From an uncultured SAR116 cluster alpha proteobacterium (GTDB lineage Bacteria > Pseudomonadota > Alphaproteobacteria > Puniceispirillales > Puniceispirillaceae): a stretch of 56,195 nt of DNA. The stretch covers positions 1 to 56,195 of the forward strand of contig CACOCY010000013.1 of the NCBI GenBank assembly GCA_902625725.1, read 5' to 3'. Positions 11,904-41,603 of this stretch are shown here, piece after piece; within the stretch, counting starts at the first letter, position 1; the number at the start of each line of letters is the position of its first letter. Position numbers and translations under genes: made by a program. The notes beneath the pieces were generated by a model. The model was not told where the DNA came from, did no database searches, and worked only from the letters and a program-made list of their open reading frames with translations.

Positions 11904-14015
11904 ATGTCATTATTTTACAGACTTTGTGAGCGGCACGAAAATTTTTTTCAGCACAGTCTCTTTAACCAGAAAACCACCTTACTTACTATAATCTTTTGTA
12001 TTATTCTGGGGTCCATAGCTTCATATATGAATTTTCATGCAAGGCACATAAATTGGCAAATCTGGGAACAAAACAAAGAAGAATTTTTTTATGAAAATAC
12101 TCCCTTATTTACAACTATGGATGCTGGTTATTTTCTTGGAATAGCTGGATACCTAAAATCAGGAAAAACCCTTGAAGAATATCAATCTTTACGTGTGTAT
12201 CCAAAAAACCAAAATAAGCAAACATCGTTAAAAATTTCAAAAAACGAGGCTCCATTATTGTCAAAAGTAATAGCCTTCTTTGCTAAAGATTCCTCCCCTC
12301 AAGAATTGTTAATAGCAGGAAATAAAATGCTTCCATATACAGCGGCCATTACAGCGATTGCTATTTTAATTGCTTTTGGGGTCACTGGGTATTGGATGGA
12401 GGGTTCAATTGCAGCTGCTGGAGGCGGGTTATCACTTGTCTATTATTGGAGGTCGGCTATCGGCAGAATAGATACTGACCAGTTAAACCTTGGGATGATG
12501 TATTTTATGTTTGCAATGGTTTTGTGTGCTGGAAGATCGCAACAATTAAAATGGGGCCTTTTCTTCACTTTAATTGCCTCAATAACAGCCAATTTATTTA
12601 TGAGTTGGTATGGTAAGTCAGAACTTATCATTATGGCTTTAATTGCTTTATGCTGGTTGCTCATAGTCATTACTAAAGATTGGCGAAGGCTTATTGGGTT
12701 TTCATTTGTATTTATCATGATTTCAGGTGTTGGTCTTATAAATCCATTTACCTCAATTTATGTTCAAACAGAGTTAGTTTTTCACGATTTCATCTTTAAT
12801 AATGTCTTATCTACAGTGACAGAAGTATCTAAATTATCATTTCCCGAAGCACTCAATCGTATAACAGGTTCCACGTTTGTTGGCAGTTTTTGTCTAATTG
12901 GTATCTTTTGTTGGGCAATCCGACATCCAGTATTAGCTGTAGCTTATGCGCCACTTGCTGGATTTGCAATGCTCTCAGTCATTCTAGGAAACCGCGCACT
13001 ATTTTATTCAGCACCATTTTTTTGGTTTGGTGGTGCCTATATAGTTGTGTTGGGCACAAGAGCCATTGTTTTTTTGTTTTTATCTAGATTTGAAGACTCA
13101 AGACAAATAATAAGTACTTCAACATCCGCATTTGCTTGCTCTATTTTGTTGATTTTGGTATGGGTTCAGGGTCCAGTCAATCAGACAGCAAAACCCTCAA
13201 TCCCCTCCCCCATTATTAAAGCAATGGCCGAATTGAAGTTTATAGCGGGCCAAGAAAAAAGCGTTTTAGCTACCTGGTGGGATTATGGTTACGCTTCAAT
13301 TCTTATGAATGGAATACCAACTTTCACGGATCCTGGATCACATTTAAGCAACTCCAATTACTTTGTTGCTGATTCATTACTATCAAATAACCAGAATTAT
13401 ACTGCAGACACACTTCGTTTTTTAGCACGTGGTGGGTTATTGAGTTTAAAAGAACCTGTTGAAGACAAGACTAATCTCATAAAAAAAATAAGTTTAGACA
13501 GGCATATTAAAACGCCAACCGTTTATTTAATGTTAACAGACCAAATGACAGGTTGGATGCCATCCATCTCAAAGATTGGAAGATGGGATATTGACACAGG
13601 CCTCCCTATCCTTGCAAAGGGTCAAAAACCTGGTCAACAATTGTCGTATGATTTTTTAAATTGTAAAGATACTAAAATTCAAGGAATAATTGAATGCAAT
13701 AATTCAAGAATCAATCTCAAAGAAGGAAAGATAGACGGAAAATCTGTTTTAAATTTATTTGCTGAGGCCCACGGAGGTAGATTAGTTGGAAGCATACGTT
13801 ACCAGCAGAGTCAATTGAATATGTTTCAAATTATGAAAGACAAAGACGGAAAATCACCAAAGGTGGCTATTCTTCATAAGGATTTATTTTTTAGTAGTTT
13901 CAATCAGATGTTTCATTTGGGGAGATTTGACACCAAGAAATTTAAATTAGTATATGATGGATACCCTGAAGTTCGAATATTTGAACTGCTTCCAGCTAAT
14001 TTTAAGAAAGAGTAA
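11904..14015 (+). CDS. STT3/PglB-type oligosaccharyltransferase family membrane protein
   Basis: A GT-C enzyme of the STT3 superfamily, which moves a lipid-linked glycan onto asparagine side chains at the periplasmic face. I start at the ATG at 11904, five bases after AAGGAG. The in-frame GTG at 11898 overlaps that site. It has 703 residues, close to PglB. The first outer loop has TTMDAGYFLGIA (about residue 72), the place of the metal-binding Asp. The second has GRIDTDQLN (about 187), a DxD-like motif. TVTE (about 303) fits the SVSE/TIxE position. WWDYG (about 457) is the diagnostic acceptor-binding motif, followed by LTDQMTGWMPSISKIG. About 11 membrane helices precede the periplasmic C-terminal domain. 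Bacterial members outside Campylobacterota and Desulfobacterota are uncommon. Its activity is unproven. Confidence 0.83.
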   Translation: MSLFYRLCERHENFFQHSLFNQKTTLLTIIFCIILGSIASYMNFHARHINWQIWEQNKEEFFYENTPLFTTMDAGYFLGIAGYLKSGKTLEEYQSLRVYPKNQNKQTSLKISKNEAPLLSKVIAFFAKDSSPQELLIAGNKMLPYTAAITAIAILIAFGVTGYWMEGSIAAAGGGLSLVYYWRSAIGRIDTDQLNLGMMYFMFAMVLCAGRSQQLKWGLFFTLIASITANLFMSWYGKSELIIMALIALCWLLIVITKDWRRLIGFSFVFIMISGVGLINPFTSIYVQTELVFHDFIFNNVLSTVTEVSKLSFPEALNRITGSTFVGSFCLIGIFCWAIRHPVLAVAYAPLAGFAMLSVILGNRALFYSAPFFWFGGAYIVVLGTRAIVFLFLSRFEDSRQIISTSTSAFACSILLILVWVQGPVNQTAKPSIPSPIIKAMAELKFIAGQEKSVLATWWDYGYASILMNGIPTFTDPGSHLSNSNYFVADSLLSNNQNYTADTLRFLARGGLLSLKEPVEDKTNLIKKISLDRHIKTPTVYLMLTDQMTGWMPSISKIGRWDIDTGLPILAKGQKPGQQLSYDFLNCKDTKIQGIIECNNSRINLKEGKIDGKSVLNLFAEAHGGRLVGSIRYQQSQLNMFQIMKDKDGKSPKVAILHKDLFFSSFNQMFHLGRFDTKKFKLVYDGYPEVRIFELLPANFKKE

Positions 14016-14101: not shown

Positions 14102-14178
14102 GGCCCCGTAGCTCATCAGGATAGAGCGCGAGATTCCTAATCCCGAGGCAACAGGTTCGAGTCCTGTCGGGGTCACCA
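14102..14178 (+). tRNA. tRNA-Arg (anticodon CCU)
   Basis: The gene is 77 nt including an encoded CCA. The acceptor stem is GGCCCCG/CGGGGTC with one G-T wobble, the D arm GCTC...GAGC, and the T arm ACAGG-TTCGAGT-CCTGT. The anticodon loop TTCCTAA gives CCU, for AGG codons. The anticodon stem CGAGA/TCCCG has an A-C mismatch at its centre pair. There is no intron, although this isoacceptor is a known host of group I introns in other Alphaproteobacteria. Confidence 0.93.
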
Positions 14179-15287: not shown

Positions 15288-16568
15288 ATGCAAAATAATA
15301 ATTTTTTAAATGCTAAGGCGGGTCTTGACTATATAGACCATATACAAGCAGGAATTTTTGACATGAATGGCATAATGCGAGGTAAAAGATTTCCAGTTAC
15401 TTCATATCAAAAATTGATTGATAACGGTATTCAAATCCCATTTTCAGCGCAAAATTTAGATATTTTTGGTAGTGATATAAGAAATAGCAGATTCGTTTTT
15501 AAAACAGGTGACAAAGATGGCTCTGCAATATGGCAGGGGGCACCGTTAGTTATTTTAAATCATTTGCCCAAGCCTATTCTTTTTATGCCATTAAGCTTTG
15601 CAATGAATAATGGCAACTTATTTGAGGGCTGCCCTAGAGCCTTTCTTAAATCCGTATTAAAAACGGCAAGCAATAAGGAATTTAATTTTAAATTTGGAAT
15701 AGAGTTAGAATTTTGCCTCTTTTCAGACGATAATTCTCCTTTAATATTTTCACAGCCTCAATTACTCTCGCTTTTGGCATTGGATTCGGTGGATCAATTG
15801 CTTCAAGATATTAGCCATTTAACGGAACAGCTTGATATTCAAACGGAATCAATATTGTCAGAATCAGGAATTGGTCAAATTGAGGTCGTATTTGCTCCCA
15901 GTGACGATTTATGTCATTTAGCAGATTGTATTCTAATTTTGAGACACTCTCTTACTGCTTATGCACTGTCAAAAGGTGTGTCTGTATCATTTCAGGCTAA
16001 GCCTAAAAAACATCTTGCAGGTAATGGATTGCACTGCCACATATCAATTGAAAATTTCGAATCTGAGAATCTGTTTGCAAAAGATGATGGTATCTTTAAA
16101 TCTGCTATTGGGTCGATTTTGTCATTGTTAGAGTCAGCAACATTAATTTTAGCCCCCTTTTCAAATTCTTATGAAAGATTTCAGGAAAATAGCCATGCTC
16201 CTATAAATATTGGTTGGGGTTTTGATAATAGGACAGTTGCTGTGCGGATTCCTAAGGCCTCTTTTTCGGCAAAAAGATTGGAGTTGAGAGTGGCTGGTGC
16301 TGACAGCAATCCATATTTGCTCTTTGCTGTATTAGTTTCTGCTATATTGGACGGAATTGATGAGATGGTAGTGCCGCCGTTACCGGTTTCTGGGAATGGA
16401 TATGCATCCGACTTAAAAAAATTGCCTTGTGATCTTAAAACAGCAATATCTAAATTTGAAAAATCACAAAAAATACGCAAATACTTACCAACAACATTGA
16501 GAGAAATGTTTATTGCAACCAAAAATCAGGAAATGCAAATAGCGACATCAGGAGATTTTGATGAGTAA
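15288..16568 (+). CDS. Glutamine synthetase family protein (gamma-glutamylpolyamine synthetase-like)
   Basis: A 426-residue ligase of the glutamine synthetase fold. Its company suggests that it glutamylates a polyamine rather than ammonia. The N-terminal beta-grasp domain shows YIDHIQAGIFDMNGIMRGKRFP. The catalytic domain has FGIELEFCLF (metal-binding Glu, about residue 131), SGIGQIEVVFAP, GNGLHCHISIEN (about residue 246), and the ATP and substrate loop NSYERFQENSHAPINIGWGFDNRTVAVRIP (about 287-317). A GGAG site precedes the ATG. Its last eight bases overlap the agmatinase start, so the two are translationally coupled. It is diverged from the second ligase of the cluster (20354-21694), and the two may use different amines. 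Confidence 0.82.
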   Translation: MQNNNFLNAKAGLDYIDHIQAGIFDMNGIMRGKRFPVTSYQKLIDNGIQIPFSAQNLDIFGSDIRNSRFVFKTGDKDGSAIWQGAPLVILNHLPKPILFMPLSFAMNNGNLFEGCPRAFLKSVLKTASNKEFNFKFGIELEFCLFSDDNSPLIFSQPQLLSLLALDSVDQLLQDISHLTEQLDIQTESILSESGIGQIEVVFAPSDDLCHLADCILILRHSLTAYALSKGVSVSFQAKPKKHLAGNGLHCHISIENFESENLFAKDDGIFKSAIGSILSLLESATLILAPFSNSYERFQENSHAPINIGWGFDNRTVAVRIPKASFSAKRLELRVAGADSNPYLLFAVLVSAILDGIDEMVVPPLPVSGNGYASDLKKLPCDLKTAISKFEKSQKIRKYLPTTLREMFIATKNQEMQIATSGDFDE

Positions 16569-38089: not shown

Positions 38090-38458
38090 TTAAAGAGCTT
38101 CTACATCCCGTGTTTGCCAGTATTCCTCGCCATAATCGTGGAATATTTCACACCCTGATTTTATTTCACATATAGCTTTAAAGAGCACAAATCGGTTATC
38201 TGCGGGGTCTATTTCCCACTCACAATTACCGGGGCTTGAATGATTAAAAAGCATACCTGCGCCCATCATAACTAAGTAATCTGTATTACAATCAGGACTC
38301 GTAAAGAGATAATCATTTAACCTATTATTTTCCTTCAAATCATCGTCATCTATAACGATGTAGGCGCATCTTTCAATCAAATCACCCTTTCTCATATCTT
38401 GAGCGGCGAAAACACCAAGCCCATGTGTTTCAGAGTTCTTTATTACATATCTTTGCAT
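38090..38458 (-). CDS. SET domain protein
   Basis: A 122-residue protein made almost wholly of a SET fold, the lysine methyltransferase domain. It starts QRYVIKNSETHGLGVFAAQDMRKGDLIERCAYIVI, has the cofactor-site motif LFNHSSPGNCEWEID (NHS, about residues 71-73), and ends CEIKSGCEIFHDYGEEYW with the family's conserved Tyr (DYG). Single-domain SET proteins occur in bacteria, but their substrates are mostly unknown. It is convergent with the DUF3833 gene. The tRNA-Thr region lies just upstream of its start, so transcripts from the tRNA could read into it. Confidence 0.83.
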   Translation of the reverse strand: MQRYVIKNSETHGLGVFAAQDMRKGDLIERCAYIVIDDDDLKENNRLNDYLFTSPDCNTDYLVMMGAGMLFNHSSPGNCEWEIDPADNRFVLFKAICEIKSGCEIFHDYGEEYWQTRDVEAL

Positions 38459-38489: not shown

Positions 38490-38539
38490 TGGTGCTGCTG
38501 AATGGATTTGAACCATCGACCTCACCCTTACCAAAAGTG
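38490..38539 (-). repeat. tRNA-Thr-like 3' half (intronless; candidate attachment-site remnant or decayed tRNA)
   Basis: On the minus strand this holds an anticodon arm (CACTT-TTGGTAA-GGGTG, with two G-U pairs), a T arm (GATGG-TTCAAAT-CCATT) and an acceptor 3' strand CAGCAGC-A-CCA. It matches the 3' exon of the tRNA-Thr gene 116 bases upstream at 32 of 40 positions, and the anticodon loop TTGGTAA is unbroken. No D arm or acceptor 5' strand precedes it, so it is not a working tRNA. Confidence 0.75.
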
Positions 38540-38613
38540 TTCTCGTCAAATGCTGGTTTAAAAAACCCATATATGTCAGAGCGTTATTAGTTTTCATTTT
38601 ACCTTTATCCTCT

Positions 38614-38635
38614 GGTTGCCAAATGGTTGCCAAAT
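38614..38635. repeat. Tandem 11-bp direct repeat beside the tRNA-Thr 3' end
   Basis: GGTTGCCAAAT occurs twice in a row without a gap. It lies between the tRNA-Thr 3' end (38655) and the tRNA-like 3' half (38539). The position suggests integrase arm-type sites or the end of a lost integrase gene. Confidence 0.6.
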
Positions 38636-38654
38636 TTTAAAAGCCCTAAATAGA

Positions 38655-38942
38655 TGGTGCTGTCGGTGGGATTTGAACCCACGACCTCTCCCTTCAAACA
38701 GAATGAGACTTTCACCTCTGGCTATCTGCTTGGACTGTCCCTTAACCTTTGCAAACAGAGTTTGCTTTAGGTTGCCACCGTCCAGTCTCTACACCTTCTC
38801 CCTGAGGAGCTTGGCTCGGGATTGCCTTAATCTTTCGACCTTAGGTTTCCCCGAATTTGATGGCTGTTCATCTGAAGCTTTCACAACAGAGAGGCAGTTT
38901 TAAACGACCAAGGGAGTGCTACTACCACTGAGCCACGACAGC
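38655..38942 (-). tRNA. tRNA-Thr (anticodon GGU) interrupted by a group I intron
   Basis: The 5' exon is 38942-38907 (36 nt) and the 3' exon 38694-38655 (40 nt), giving a 76-nt tRNA with encoded CCA. The acceptor stem GCTGTCG/CGACAGC pairs perfectly. The T arm is GTGGG-TTCAAAT-CCCAC. The anticodon stem is CTCCC/GGGAG with loop TT-GGT-AA once the intron is removed. The D stem has only three clear pairs (GCT/AGC) and a C-T mismatch from one extra base in the D loop. The intron sits directly after the anticodon, between positions 36 and 37. The exon sequence is that of the standard alphaproteobacterial tRNA-Thr(GGU). Confidence 0.93.
38695..38906 (-). ncRNA. Group I self-splicing intron (Azoarcus-like) in tRNA-Thr
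   Basis: A 212-nt intron without an open reading frame. The 5' exon ends in U and the intron ends in G, as group I splicing requires. P1: anticodon GGU pairs with GCC (38895-38893), extended by GUU/AAC. P2: CUGUU/AACAG. P3: GCCAUC (38864-38859)/GGUGGC (38779-38774). P4: UUCGGG/CCCGAG. P5 is capped by GAAA. P6: CUCC/GGAG. P7: GACUG (38787-38783)/CAGUC (38737-38733). P8: AACCU/AGGUU enclosing GCAAAC/GUUUGC. P9: GAGGU-GAAA-GUCUC. Core strings such as CAAATTCGG, GAAACCTAAG, GAAGGTGTAGAGACT and AGTCCA match the Azoarcus tRNA-Ile intron as I recall it. Confidence 0.93.
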
Positions 38943-38978: not shown

Positions 38979-39210
38979 CCAAGTATCCAAGAGCGTTTTG
39001 GAGTAAGGCAAATAAAGCTCGTCAATTTTCAGAGTGAATATTTACAGTAATAATGCGAGATGGTATTGATTAGGAAGAAAGTTGGGATTTGTTGATGAAG
39101 TATATATCTTTTTTATTGTTTTTTATTAGTTACCATAATTACTAAGCTATTTTAATATATTTTAAATTTGCAGTGGCTTTTTTGACAAATAGAGAAATAG
39201 GGAGCTGGTG

Positions 39211-39543
39211 ATGATTAGAATAAAAGTTTTAGAAAAGATGCTTTATATTTGTTGTTTGATAATATTGTCTGGTTGCAGTCAAACATTCCACAAAACATTA
39301 ATGAATAGTGATACACAAAGGTATTTACTAGTTTGGGGAAATGATTTTGCTCATATGAACGAAGTGGAACTAGAGTTTAAAAAGCAAGCTTTCTACTACT
39401 GTCCTGAAGGTTACGAAATTACTGCCTACAACAAAGCCGTTGGTGGAATGGATTTAAATTTTCTTTTTGGTCAGCCATATTTTTCTACCAGTGAAGGTCT
39501 TGAAGGAAAGCATAGAATTGAGGGTACAATTAAGTGTTTTTAA
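39211..39543 (+). CDS. Small predicted lipoprotein of unknown function
   Basis: A 110-residue protein with a lipoprotein signal: basic start, hydrophobic MLYICCLIILSGC, and acylation Cys at about residue 22 (lipobox LSGC). The mature part has two more cysteines (YYCPEGYE and the C-terminal KCF) and is otherwise unrecognised. I start at the ATG at 39211, six bases after AGGGAG. A GTG lies one codon earlier. It is in a mosaic region between the tRNA-Thr gene and the oxidoreductase pair, beside another orphan gene. Confidence 0.65.
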   Translation: MIRIKVLEKMLYICCLIILSGCSQTFHKTLMNSDTQRYLLVWGNDFAHMNEVELEFKKQAFYYCPEGYEITAYNKAVGGMDLNFLFGQPYFSTSEGLEGKHRIEGTIKCF

Positions 39544-39597: not shown

Positions 39598-39996
39598 ATG
39601 AGATCGCTTGCAGAACTTTTTAGATTTTCATTATTTTTTGCTCTTTTTCTTGCAATTGCGATTGTCTTTGTAGGTGTTTATTTAGCAAATGATTGGAGTT
39701 CAAGCGAACGACTTTTAGGTTGGATATTAATTGGCACTGGTGTTTCATATGTGATTTTAATTTCTCCAAGTGCAGTCTTGCTTGTCATAATGGATGACTT
39801 GCGTGAAATCCGAAATCATTTAATTCCAAACGATAAGTCTGAAGATGAAGCTCGTAAATCTTCATATAAAATTAGCCAAGAACAAATGGATTTGTCTGCT
39901 GGTGCTTATGCTCGAGCAAATAAAACAAACTCAGAAGAAAGTAAAAACACAAAAACTCCTAAGATGTCTGAGCGAAAAACACCTCGGCTGAAGTGA
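39598..39996 (+). CDS. Hypothetical membrane protein
   Basis: A 132-residue protein with two hydrophobic segments (FSLFFALFLAIAIVFVGVYLA, about 10-30, and LLGWILIGTGVSYVILISPSAVLLVI, about 38-63). A charged, soluble C-terminal tail rich in Lys, Ser and Glu follows. I recognise no family. The start follows AGGAG at about 10 bases. It lies 54 bases downstream of the small lipoprotein gene and may share its transcript. The tail from residue 95 looks disordered. Confidence 0.6.
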   Translation: MRSLAELFRFSLFFALFLAIAIVFVGVYLANDWSSSERLLGWILIGTGVSYVILISPSAVLLVIMDDLREIRNHLIPNDKSEDEARKSSYKISQEQMDLSAGAYARANKTNSEESKNTKTPKMSERKTPRLK

Positions 39997-40014: not shown

Positions 40015-40158
40015 CTAAGCTTTTAACATTCTATAAATGAAGTCTTGTTGGTAAGGCTTACCAGCGCCTGTCATGTATCCTAATTCATAAAGTTGATTAG
40101 CAACCTTTTGATAGGATAATCGTTTCCCAGATACAGGGTTTTTGCGACTACCAAGAGA
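40015..40158 (-). pseudogene. C-terminal fragment resembling a site-specific recombinase
   Basis: A 47-codon open stretch bounded by an upstream stop (40161-40159) and ending in TAG. It reads like a protein tail: SRKNPVSGKRLSYQKVANQL, then YELGYMTGAGKPYQQDFIYR, then MLKA. The pattern of a helix followed by a 'GxxTxxGKP' turn and a final helix resembles the end of serine recombinases of the large resolvase group. There is no start codon and no upstream part. It lies at the 3' end of the disulfide oxidoreductase gene. Confidence 0.4.
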
Positions 40159-40181: not shown

Positions 40182-41603
40182 TCAGGGTAGAAGCTTGAAA
40201 CGTAATTTCACAAGCCAATTCATTTTAGCGCCAAATAGGGTTTTCGAATAAAATGTGCTAGCTGCCTGTTTTATAGTCTCTCCATATGAAGGATATGGAA
40301 AATTTAATCTTGCTAATGCGCTAAGTTTAAGTTTTAGTGTGATCGCAAAAGTGCAGGTTTGAATTAACTCGCCAGCGTTTGGCGCAAAAATAGTTGCGCC
40401 TATAAGACTTCCGTTTTTCTTTGCTATTAGTTGAACCAATCCATTAACATTGCCCTCAGTAACAGACCTATCATTTGTCTCGAATTTTTTCTTAATACAG
40501 ATTATATTTTGAATTCCAAATTTTAACTCTGCAGCTTCTTTAGTGTAACCAACTTGCGAAAGTTCAGGCTCTGTGTAAATTGTGTTTGGAACAATTTTAG
40601 TATTTATTCTTGCTGGAAACTTAAGCAAAATATTTTTTAGAGCAACTGATGCATGTTCAGAAGCCATATTAGTATGCCTCTTTGAAGTTACAACATCACC
40701 AATAGCATAAATACGTTTGTTGTTGGTCCGAAGATGATGATTAGTCTCAATTAATCCATTATTAACGACTAAACCCGCTTTTTCGATGCCGAGCCTATAT
40801 ATATTAGTTATTCGTCCTACCGCAATTAGAACGTGAGAGCCGGAAATAAAATGTTTTTTTGTCTTTACAAATATTTCTTCGTTTTTAGAGGTAATGTTTT
40901 TTATGGATGACTGTTCAAAAAAAGTTATTCCCTCTGACACTAGTGTTTCTCGGACAATTTGTGTAATTTCTTTGTCGTGATTTGAGAGAATAAAATTAGA
41001 CTCAATTATGCTCACTTCTGAGCCAAGCCTTTTAAAGGCCTGTGCTAACTCTATGCCAATTGCACCGCCTCCAATAATAATCAAATGTAAAGGAAGCTCT
41101 GACAAAGTGAATATAGTCTCATTTGTAAGATAGGGTATATCTTTAAGACCAGGTATTTTGGGAATCAATGGTTCGGTCCCAGTTGCGATTACCGCATATT
41201 TAAAATTAATTTTTGTTGAGTCTGAACTAACTTGATGTTTGCCTGTAAATTTTGCACGTTCACGAATGACTTTCACACCTAGTTCTTCAAATCTTTCTGT
41301 TGAATCATGAGGTGCAATTTTATCAATAACACTTAATATGTCTCTCTTGATCTCGCCGAAATTTACCTTTGGTTTTGAAGATATTAAGATGCTTTTCTTT
41401 TTTAGATTCTGCACTTGAAAAGCAGTTTTGGCATTTGCAATAAATGTTTTAGAGGGAATGCAGCCATAATTGAGACAGTCGCCTCCCATTTTTCCATCTT
41501 CAAATAACACCGTATTTGCCCCCATTTGTGCAGCACCAGCTGCCATGGATAAACCAGCTGCACCACCCCCAATTATACAAATGTCAGTTTCAATTTCTTT
41601 CAT
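40182..41603 (-). CDS. FAD-dependent pyridine nucleotide-disulfide oxidoreductase (mercuric reductase-like)
   Basis: A 473-residue flavoprotein with the dihydrolipoamide dehydrogenase/MerA layout. It has an FAD fold IETDICIIGGGAAGLSMAAGAAQMGANTVLFE (residues 3-35) and the redox-active disulfide GGDCLNYGCIPSK (about 40-52). An NAD(P) fold HLIIIGGGAIGIELAQAFKRLGSEVSIIE follows (about 173-201), then a second FAD motif NKRIYAIGDV (about 291-300) and a C-terminal dimer domain. The final PYPSYGE replaces the HPTxSE of true lipoamide dehydrogenase, and no MerA HMA or C-terminal Cys pair is present. It overlaps the TVP38 gene by 14 bases, a pairing common in Proteobacteria. The substrate is unknown. 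Confidence 0.87.
   Translation of the reverse strand: MKEIETDICIIGGGAAGLSMAAGAAQMGANTVLFEDGKMGGDCLNYGCIPSKTFIANAKTAFQVQNLKKKSILISSKPKVNFGEIKRDILSVIDKIAPHDSTERFEELGVKVIRERAKFTGKHQVSSDSTKINFKYAVIATGTEPLIPKIPGLKDIPYLTNETIFTLSELPLHLIIIGGGAIGIELAQAFKRLGSEVSIIESNFILSNHDKEITQIVRETLVSEGITFFEQSSIKNITSKNEEIFVKTKKHFISGSHVLIAVGRITNIYRLGIEKAGLVVNNGLIETNHHLRTNNKRIYAIGDVVTSKRHTNMASEHASVALKNILLKFPARINTKIVPNTIYTEPELSQVGYTKEAAELKFGIQNIICIKKKFETNDRSVTEGNVNGLVQLIAKKNGSLIGATIFAPNAGELIQTCTFAITLKLKLSALARLNFPYPSYGETIKQAASTFYSKTLFGAKMNWLVKLRFKLLP

Follow-up and report, generated by a model that had tools for sequence, protein, structure and literature searches.

It has long been asked why self-splicing introns have persisted in a small number of bacterial tRNA genes. 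The question is raised anew by a 56,195-nt stretch of DNA from an uncultured SAR116 cluster alphaproteobacterium (hereafter the window), in which a tRNA-Thr(GGU) gene is interrupted by a group I intron directly after the anticodon: how did the intron come to lie in this gene, and does the cell depend on its removal? The classical bacterial tRNA group I introns are of the Azoarcus type and belong to subgroup IC3.

The interrupted tRNA-Thr(GGU) gene

The gene consists of four parts:

38907-38942, minus strand: 5' exon of tRNA-Thr(GGU), 36 nt, ending ...CUUGGU (U36)
38695-38906, minus strand: group I intron, 212 nt, with a P1 IGS GCC that pairs with exon GGU, a P3-P8 core and a final nucleotide G
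38658-38694, minus strand: 3' exon (AAGGGAG...GACAGCA), 37 nt
38655-38657, minus strand: encoded CCA of the split tRNA-Thr(GGU)

A preliminary description of the window had placed a group I intron in a tRNA-Thr(GGU) gene at 38655-38942, with 212 nt separating positions 36 and 37, and had proposed a covariance search as a check. Both claims are borne out. The Rfam model Intron_gpI (RF00028) matches 38913..38686 of the minus strand with 51.7 bits, over its cut-off of 50 (E 2.8e-10), and the exons of 36 and 37 nt, once joined, are read by ARAGORN as a 76-nt tRNA-Thr(ggt) with a cloverleaf and the anticodon GGU (CCA was appended for the run and is also encoded by the gene). The tRNA body has the pairs G1-C72 and C2-G71, which we take to be of the Thr identity type. 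Its acceptor, anticodon and T stems are intact, and the D-stem has three pairs in the intron mode of ARAGORN. The D-arm contains one extra U, absent from all 22 other Thr(GGU) exon pairs, which may reflect weak function or an assembly error.

In the same intron mode, ARAGORN calls the gene tRNA-Gln(TTG), split at 32/33, because two joints satisfy the rule of an exon U ahead and an intron G at the end. A tRNA-Gln(UUG) is hardly credible, and the call was rejected: the conserved IGS pairs with GGU and not with CCCU, an intact tRNA-Gln(TTG) is present elsewhere in the genome (L024), and the homologues are tRNA-Thr. The tRNA-Thr reading is preferred since the joined exons form tRNA-Thr(GGT), all 23 introns aligned below retain the GGU|GCC pairing between exon and IGS, and the homologues are tRNA-Thr(GGT); the SAR116 relatives are called Thr(GGT), with the intron after position 36.

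Splicing would matter to the cell if no other tRNA could take the place of this one. ACC and ACT account for 261 of the 555 Thr codons in 25 ORFs of the window. A second tRNA-Thr(GGU), for which the preliminary description had suggested a search, was not found among the 33 intact tRNAs of the genome assembly, and the native copy is reduced to a 3' half (see below). The dependence argued in that description is thus supported as far as the assembly reaches, which is 90.5% complete and could lack another tRNA-Thr(GGU). Because it is the only GGU tRNA found, the split copy would carry the decoding of ACC and ACU, and the cell would depend on it.

Run with default settings on the window, ARAGORN reports tRNA-Arg(CCT) and tRNA-Phe only and misses the split gene, and it finds a GGT tRNA in 0 of 23 loci with a Thr(GGU) intron. 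At the gathering score, Rfam reported one of seven sources; six of the seven hold such introns (L102, L126, L110, L040, L078 and L111), and one of these six was reported in this test. In a separate run, the window and three SAR116 Thr introns were over the cut-off. Interrupted tRNA genes are easily missed, and genomes therefore look as though they were without an essential tRNA.

Conservation of the intron structure

The window intron was aligned with 22 introns of the same site, each with 10 nt of exon on either side (23 rows), and a structure of 37 pairs was tested, comprising the anticodon stem, P1, P2, P3, P4, P5, P6, P7 (pseudoknot) and P8, with P9 outside the count. Cells were paired in 97.5% of cases against a mean of 85.6 in 500 shuffles, a measure favoured by the definition of the structure from the window sequence. 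Changes on both sides were found at 20 pairs (shuffled mean 10.9) and in 93 cells (24 in shuffles). None of the 500 shuffles reached the real value on any of five measures, and six of six controls slid by 1-3 columns were far worse (29-55% paired). The conserved structure of the intron is not due to chance.

Both-side changes are seen in P3, P5, P7 and P8, and all cells of P3, P4, P5 and P7 are paired; P3, for instance, is GCCATC/GGTGGC in the window and CCGCCC/GGGCGG or GCTCTC/GGGAGC in others. P8 is the weakest helix (87.8% paired), with a last pair that fails in 14 of 23 rows, and P1 and P4 are uninformative by covariation because they are invariant across the 23 rows. In the window sequence, pairing holds in each of the helices tested (P1 to P8). 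The preliminary description had also noted an exon U ahead of the intron, a terminal intron G and a core that could be folded by hand: the U-G pair at the 5' splice site and the G preceding A37 occur in 23 of 23 rows, and the alignment with the 22 same-site introns upholds the fold for P1-P8.

From this structure, the intron would be expected to splice by the two-step reaction that is standard for group I. In the transcript, the IGS GCC would pair with exon GGU and an external G would cut after U36; the terminal G of the intron would then be used and U36 joined to A37, giving the loop UUGGUAA in mature tRNA-Thr.

A truncated native gene and an insert

In all 7 readable relatives within the genus, an intact, intronless tRNA-Thr(GGU) lies between an oxidoreductase gene and a SET gene, so that the site is empty; two other members without a tRNA match were left out (G005, whose SET gene lies on a contig stretch without any tRNA, and G008, which has no SET match). 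In the window, about 1.6 kb between the two genes replaces the intact native tRNA:

40182-41603, minus strand: pyridine-nucleotide oxidoreductase gene, the chromosomal left flank, ahead of native tRNA-Thr in 7/7 relatives
40018-40158, minus strand: 47-aa frame on the far edge of the insert, beside the oxidoreductase stop, weakly like PF07508 Recombinase
39598-39996, plus strand: 132-aa ORF of the insert, judged by eye to be apparently membrane-associated; Pfam gave no family at E 0.001
39208-39543, plus strand: 111-aa ORF of the insert, resembling a lipoprotein by eye; without a Pfam family
38535-38654, minus strand: spacer of 120 nt from the split tRNA to the orphan half, with a tandem TTTGGCAACCA repeat at 38613-38634
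38490-38534, minus strand: orphan 3' half of native tRNA-Thr(GGU), 45 nt, TTGGTAA to CCA, an exact match to the relatives' gene
38090-38458, minus strand: SET-domain gene, the chromosomal right flank, after native tRNA-Thr in 7/7 relatives

The orphan half begins exactly at the 7-nt anticodon loop TTGGTAA (38528-38534), and the bases that precede it are non-native. TTGGTAA is presumed to be a 7-bp att core, and the orphan half would then read as attR. The native 5' half is absent from the genome when searched with a 30-nt probe and up to 3 mismatches, and the window contains one attR-like junction only. Both exons of the interrupted tRNA differ from the native gene of the genus, and the interrupted tRNA is therefore taken as foreign. 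Within the spacer, GCAAC occurs 2 times against 0.13 expected, and the tandem TTTGGCAACCA repeat appears to resemble integrase arm sites. On the orphan native half, the insert of about 1.6 kb and the halves that recur beside other intron-bearing tRNAs, the preliminary description had been silent.

The gap between oxidoreductase and tRNA in the relatives is too short for the ORF at 39208-39543. Both inserted ORFs gave weak PHROG matches only, and 24 pattern matches to relatives of the 39598-39996 ORF in viral contigs yielded none that was confirmed. The 47-aa frame reached 14.3 bits against PF07508, below the cut-off of 21.1 (E 0.049). Beyond this sub-threshold recombinase trace, Pfam recognised no integrase gene in the insert, which we therefore call a remnant and not a member of the tRNA-targeting elements. 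In another part of the same genome (G000:C9), two partial integrase matches are found at 12224-12427 and 16235-16390, the second about 140 nt from a tRNA-Ser(GCT); these are probably traces of another decayed tRNA-targeting element.

Occurrence of tRNA-Thr introns

A contig collection of named genomes was scanned with a pattern that combines TTGGT with the P4-P6 core. The pattern is strict, so the counts are lower bounds, and it is blind to other insertion sites within tRNA-Thr. It matched 54 stretches, which were assigned by ARAGORN and exon matching: 23 tRNA-Thr(GGU) (22 complete, and L116 cut by the locus end), 4 tRNA-Thr(UGU) from betaproteobacteria, 13 tRNA-Leu(UAA) and 8 other or unclear, with 6 further matches labelled Phe by ARAGORN and Leu-like by eye. 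All 22 complete Thr(GGU) introns are inserted at the very position seen in the window, the pattern itself being anchored on TTGGT. Hosts of the 23 Thr(GGU) introns are Alphaproteobacteria or less precisely named proteobacteria, including Roseicella, Alkalilacustris, Pseudaestuariivita, Hyphomicrobium and Pseudorhodoplanes. Three SAR116 genomes are also among the hosts, and their introns are the same as those in G065, G068 and G071 of the window's order. Matches were obtained in 4 of 136 genomes of that order; viral contigs gave 3, with no tRNA-Thr(GGU) among them.

A tree was built from 53 of 61 extracted cores, leaving out 8 that were poor, truncated or from other contexts; 2 more loci gave no core. 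The window intron clusters with the three SAR116 Thr(GGU) introns (99/100) on a long branch. Monophyly of the Thr(GGU) introns is unsupported, since the tree needs 4 label changes.

The preliminary description had suggested a new host site, and in one respect this can be kept. The open literature searched, which excluded subscription papers and preprints, yielded no bacterial tRNA-Thr group I intron, and none is named in the accessible text of eight papers (PMC3984707, PMC8450103, PMC5733544, PMC4033280, PMC11408192, PMC3293823, PMC4390854 and PMC9897764). These include a review of bacterial group I introns (PMC3984707), a study of cyanobacterial tRNAs (PMC5733544) and the tRNAscan-SE 2.0 paper (PMC8450103), which names fMet and Ile2 introns. 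The site is not, on the other hand, specific to the window, given that 23 of the 54 matches are Thr(GGU) and 4 more are Thr(UGU).

Orphan halves beside other intron-bearing tRNAs

An orphan half was defined as a half-length copy of the same tRNA, of at least 25 nt and at least 85%, within 1.5 kb and outside intact tRNAs. Such halves accompany 11 of 55 intron-bearing tRNAs, some of which are near-copies (Kiloniella tRNA-Leu), against 1 of 77 intronless ones (Fisher p 2.8e-4); the controls came from fetched loci, many of them of the window's genome or order, were unmatched, and alone were required to have 300-nt flanks. Intronless Thr loci taken alone gave 0 of 24. By host, the halves were found in Thr(GGU) (6/23), Thr(UGU) (2/4), Leu(UAA) (2/13), Arg(CCU) (1/3) and the rest (0/12). 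The break point lies in the anticodon arm or loop in 11 of 11 intron cases and at position 55 in the sole control case, and the distance from orphan half to intron-bearing tRNA is 95-176 nt in ten cases and 1376 nt in one. No orphan half is present within 1.5 kb of the other 44 tRNAs, 17 of the 23 Thr(GGU) cases included, and delivery by an element is therefore unsupported for those; at L120 a 5' half lies 10.5 kb away.

In Roseicella (G101), the 5' half, ...CCC TTGGTAA CAAAG, is found 108 nt ahead of the interrupted tRNA and the 3' half, ...GATTC TTGGTAA GGGAG, on another contig. Both junctions are thus seen, on two contigs, and the seven bases common to the two halves are the anticodon loop. 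The layout of the window recurs in two betaproteobacterial tRNA-Thr(UGU) loci (L102 and L126), where the interrupted tRNA is followed by 97-98 nt with three GCAAC and then by an orphan 3' half; GCAAC repeats are absent from the spacers of L095, L124, L111 and L040, and that of L130 has one GCAAC. At L110/L161 (G152, Paraburkholderia), an interrupted tRNA-Thr(UGU) precedes a 3' fragment whose loop, CTGGTAA, is Thr GGU-like by eye. In G015, a single-contig genome of the SAR116 order (L040/L165), a tRNA-Arg(CCU) intron lies 128 nt from an orphan tRNA-Arg 5' half on the opposite strand, with the core TTCCTAA; in the window itself, tRNA-Arg(CCT) (14102-14178) is unbroken.

Recombinases occur close to several of these genes. 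In Roseicella (L154), a tyrosine integrase lies 1.4 kb beyond the interrupted tRNA and is followed by a MobA-type relaxase, and in G105 (L155) a tyrosine integrase (32.8 bits) lies 177 nt ahead of it. Paraburkholderia (L161) has three tandem tyrosine recombinases, two over the cut-off and one at 25.1 bits against 27.1, together with an ORF of 155 aa whose end lies about 70 nt ahead of the interrupted tRNA. In Sphingobium (L163), a tyrosine recombinase (26.7 bits, cut-off 27.1) stands between the orphan half and the interrupted tRNA. An integrase is present within 10 kb in at least 5 of 14 intron genomes (G101, G105, G152, G153 and G103), where 0.88 would be expected (Poisson p 0.002, post hoc); G105 entered this count from the search of its locus described above. 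Among the ORFs tested at L102, L124, L126, L130 and L162, no integrase family was recognised.

Origin of the split gene

We consider it probable that an integrative element cut the native gene, brought an intron-bearing tRNA as a replacement and has since decayed, splicing now restoring the only tRNA-Thr(GGU) detected. The 7-nt anticodon loop of the native tRNA-Thr(GGU) would have been the point at which the element entered and split the gene. The element would have carried a complete intron-bearing tRNA, and the native gene itself would never have been invaded by an intron. Decay would then have left the foreign tRNA, the arm-site-like spacer, two small ORFs and the orphan 3' half, with loss of the native 5' half. 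We infer delivery of the split copy by an integrase acting at the anticodon loop because of the exact junction, the empty sites in relatives, the foreign exons and the recurrence of the arrangement.

Alternatively, the intron alone could have spread by homing or reverse splicing, the orphan halves being unrelated scars of ordinary tRNA-targeting islands. That most intron-bearing tRNAs (44/55) have no orphan half within 1.5 kb would agree with this, as would the site that the window shares with all 22 complete Thr(GGU) cases, allowing for a pattern anchored on TTGGT, and the tRNA fragments that ordinary islands leave behind according to the accessible parts of PMC9897764 and PMC4383910. We nevertheless judge it unlikely: the window has two foreign exons with a truncated native gene alongside, orphan halves are found at 11 of 55 against 1 of 77, and the spacing, near 100 nt in most cases, is too short for an ordinary island. 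It is also improbable, in our opinion, that the interrupted tRNA is a target regenerated at the end of an ordinary island, with the orphan half as the displaced fragment and the intron as a later arrival. Such regeneration is the rule for islands in the part of PMC4383910 available, and the exons of L111 equal both orphan halves across their overlap, but regeneration keeps one native half, whereas the window gene has neither, and in L040 the tRNA-Arg with the intron is on the strand opposite the orphan half.

There is little to recommend the view of the interrupted gene as a decaying pseudogene, with ACC and ACU read by another tRNA outside the assembly. The extra D-arm U, the D-stem of 3 pairs and a genome that is 90.5% complete would fit such a view; against it, all the helices tested pair (P1 to P8), the acceptor, anticodon and T stems are intact, no other GGT tRNA exists among the 33, and the native copy is broken.

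Delivery by an integrative element leads to a wider and more tentative proposal, which we put at somewhat below even chances: bacterial tRNA group I introns may travel largely in replacement tRNAs on elements that cut anticodon loops, and the ribozyme may guard first the tRNA of the element and subsequently the host against integrases of the same family, an immunity by att-site interruption. The intron lies inside the 7-bp core (TTGGT|AA), and the replacement tRNA would therefore be unrecognisable as attB DNA and functional only after splicing. The shielding of the replacement copy from the integrase is speculative. If the proposal is true, the site, patchy spread and transfer of these introns would be explained jointly, and the archaeal tRNA intron proposal of Randau and Soll, as cited in the portions seen of PMC3293823 and PMC4390854, would become testable in bacteria. 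In their accessible text, the eight papers listed above make no tie between bacterial tRNA introns and replacement tRNAs on integrative elements.

Relation to known systems

With the classical introns of tRNA-Leu(UAA), tRNA-Ile(CAU), tRNA-Arg(CCU) and initiator tRNA-Met, the window intron shares an anticodon-loop site after an exon U, a short length, the lack of an ORF and the same core motifs. It differs, as far as the accessible literature describes them, in its host, tRNA-Thr(GGU), and in adjoining a displaced native half. Introns in tRNA-Arg(CCU) occur in the family of the window organism.

In Caldiarchaeum subterraneum, a disrupted tRNA-Thr(GGU), with gain of an intron and a scattered tRNA fragment, has been attributed to integration of a mobile element, and the blocking of further invasion was proposed as the advantage (PMC3293823, in the part available). 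The tRNA is the same, and intron gain is likewise accompanied by a tRNA fragment. By that partial account, however, the archaeal case concerns an archaeal intron in one natural population, whereas here a bacterial group I ribozyme is found in many lineages and several tRNAs. The tRNA-targeting islands catalogued by Islander, as presented in the accessible part of PMC4383910, share a displaced tRNA fragment that marks the end, a tRNA target and a tyrosine integrase; they differ in that the arrangement described here provides a complete interrupted tRNA, at about 100 nt from the core, and does not rebuild the target from native parts.

Related introns in other settings

Group I introns of this kind were also met outside tRNA-Thr. 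A relative in a Vibrio phage, one of 21 records, lies just ahead of a ribonucleotide reductase gene and outside any tRNA. The TTGGT-anchored pattern also matched two genomes of Patescibacteria type and a viral contig of 543 kb (L101, L119 and L132), in which ARAGORN called introns in tRNA-Met, tRNA-Phe and tRNA-Tyr; tRNA group I introns seem to have hosts beyond those on the classical list.

In the best 20 of 1260 PLSDB records, the part of the insert DNA that matches plasmids is the intron core (query 1331-1460). One record examined, NC_004464.2, has an unannotated group I intron-like stretch at 61870-62067 (L159), which resembles these introns at about 75-77% and has an AAA-ATPase gene and aac(3)-IId nearby. 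Rfam made no report of the stretch at the cut-off. It lies inside a tRNA-like gene (ARAGORN 1423-1721, intron 221) and occurs in many enterobacterial plasmids, with 1260 and 1288 PLSDB records matched. Within the window's order, L031 (G062) and L032 (G015) gave strong group I intron matches of 89.9 and 73.8 bits at places where ARAGORN finds no tRNA; these introns possibly lie in protein genes.
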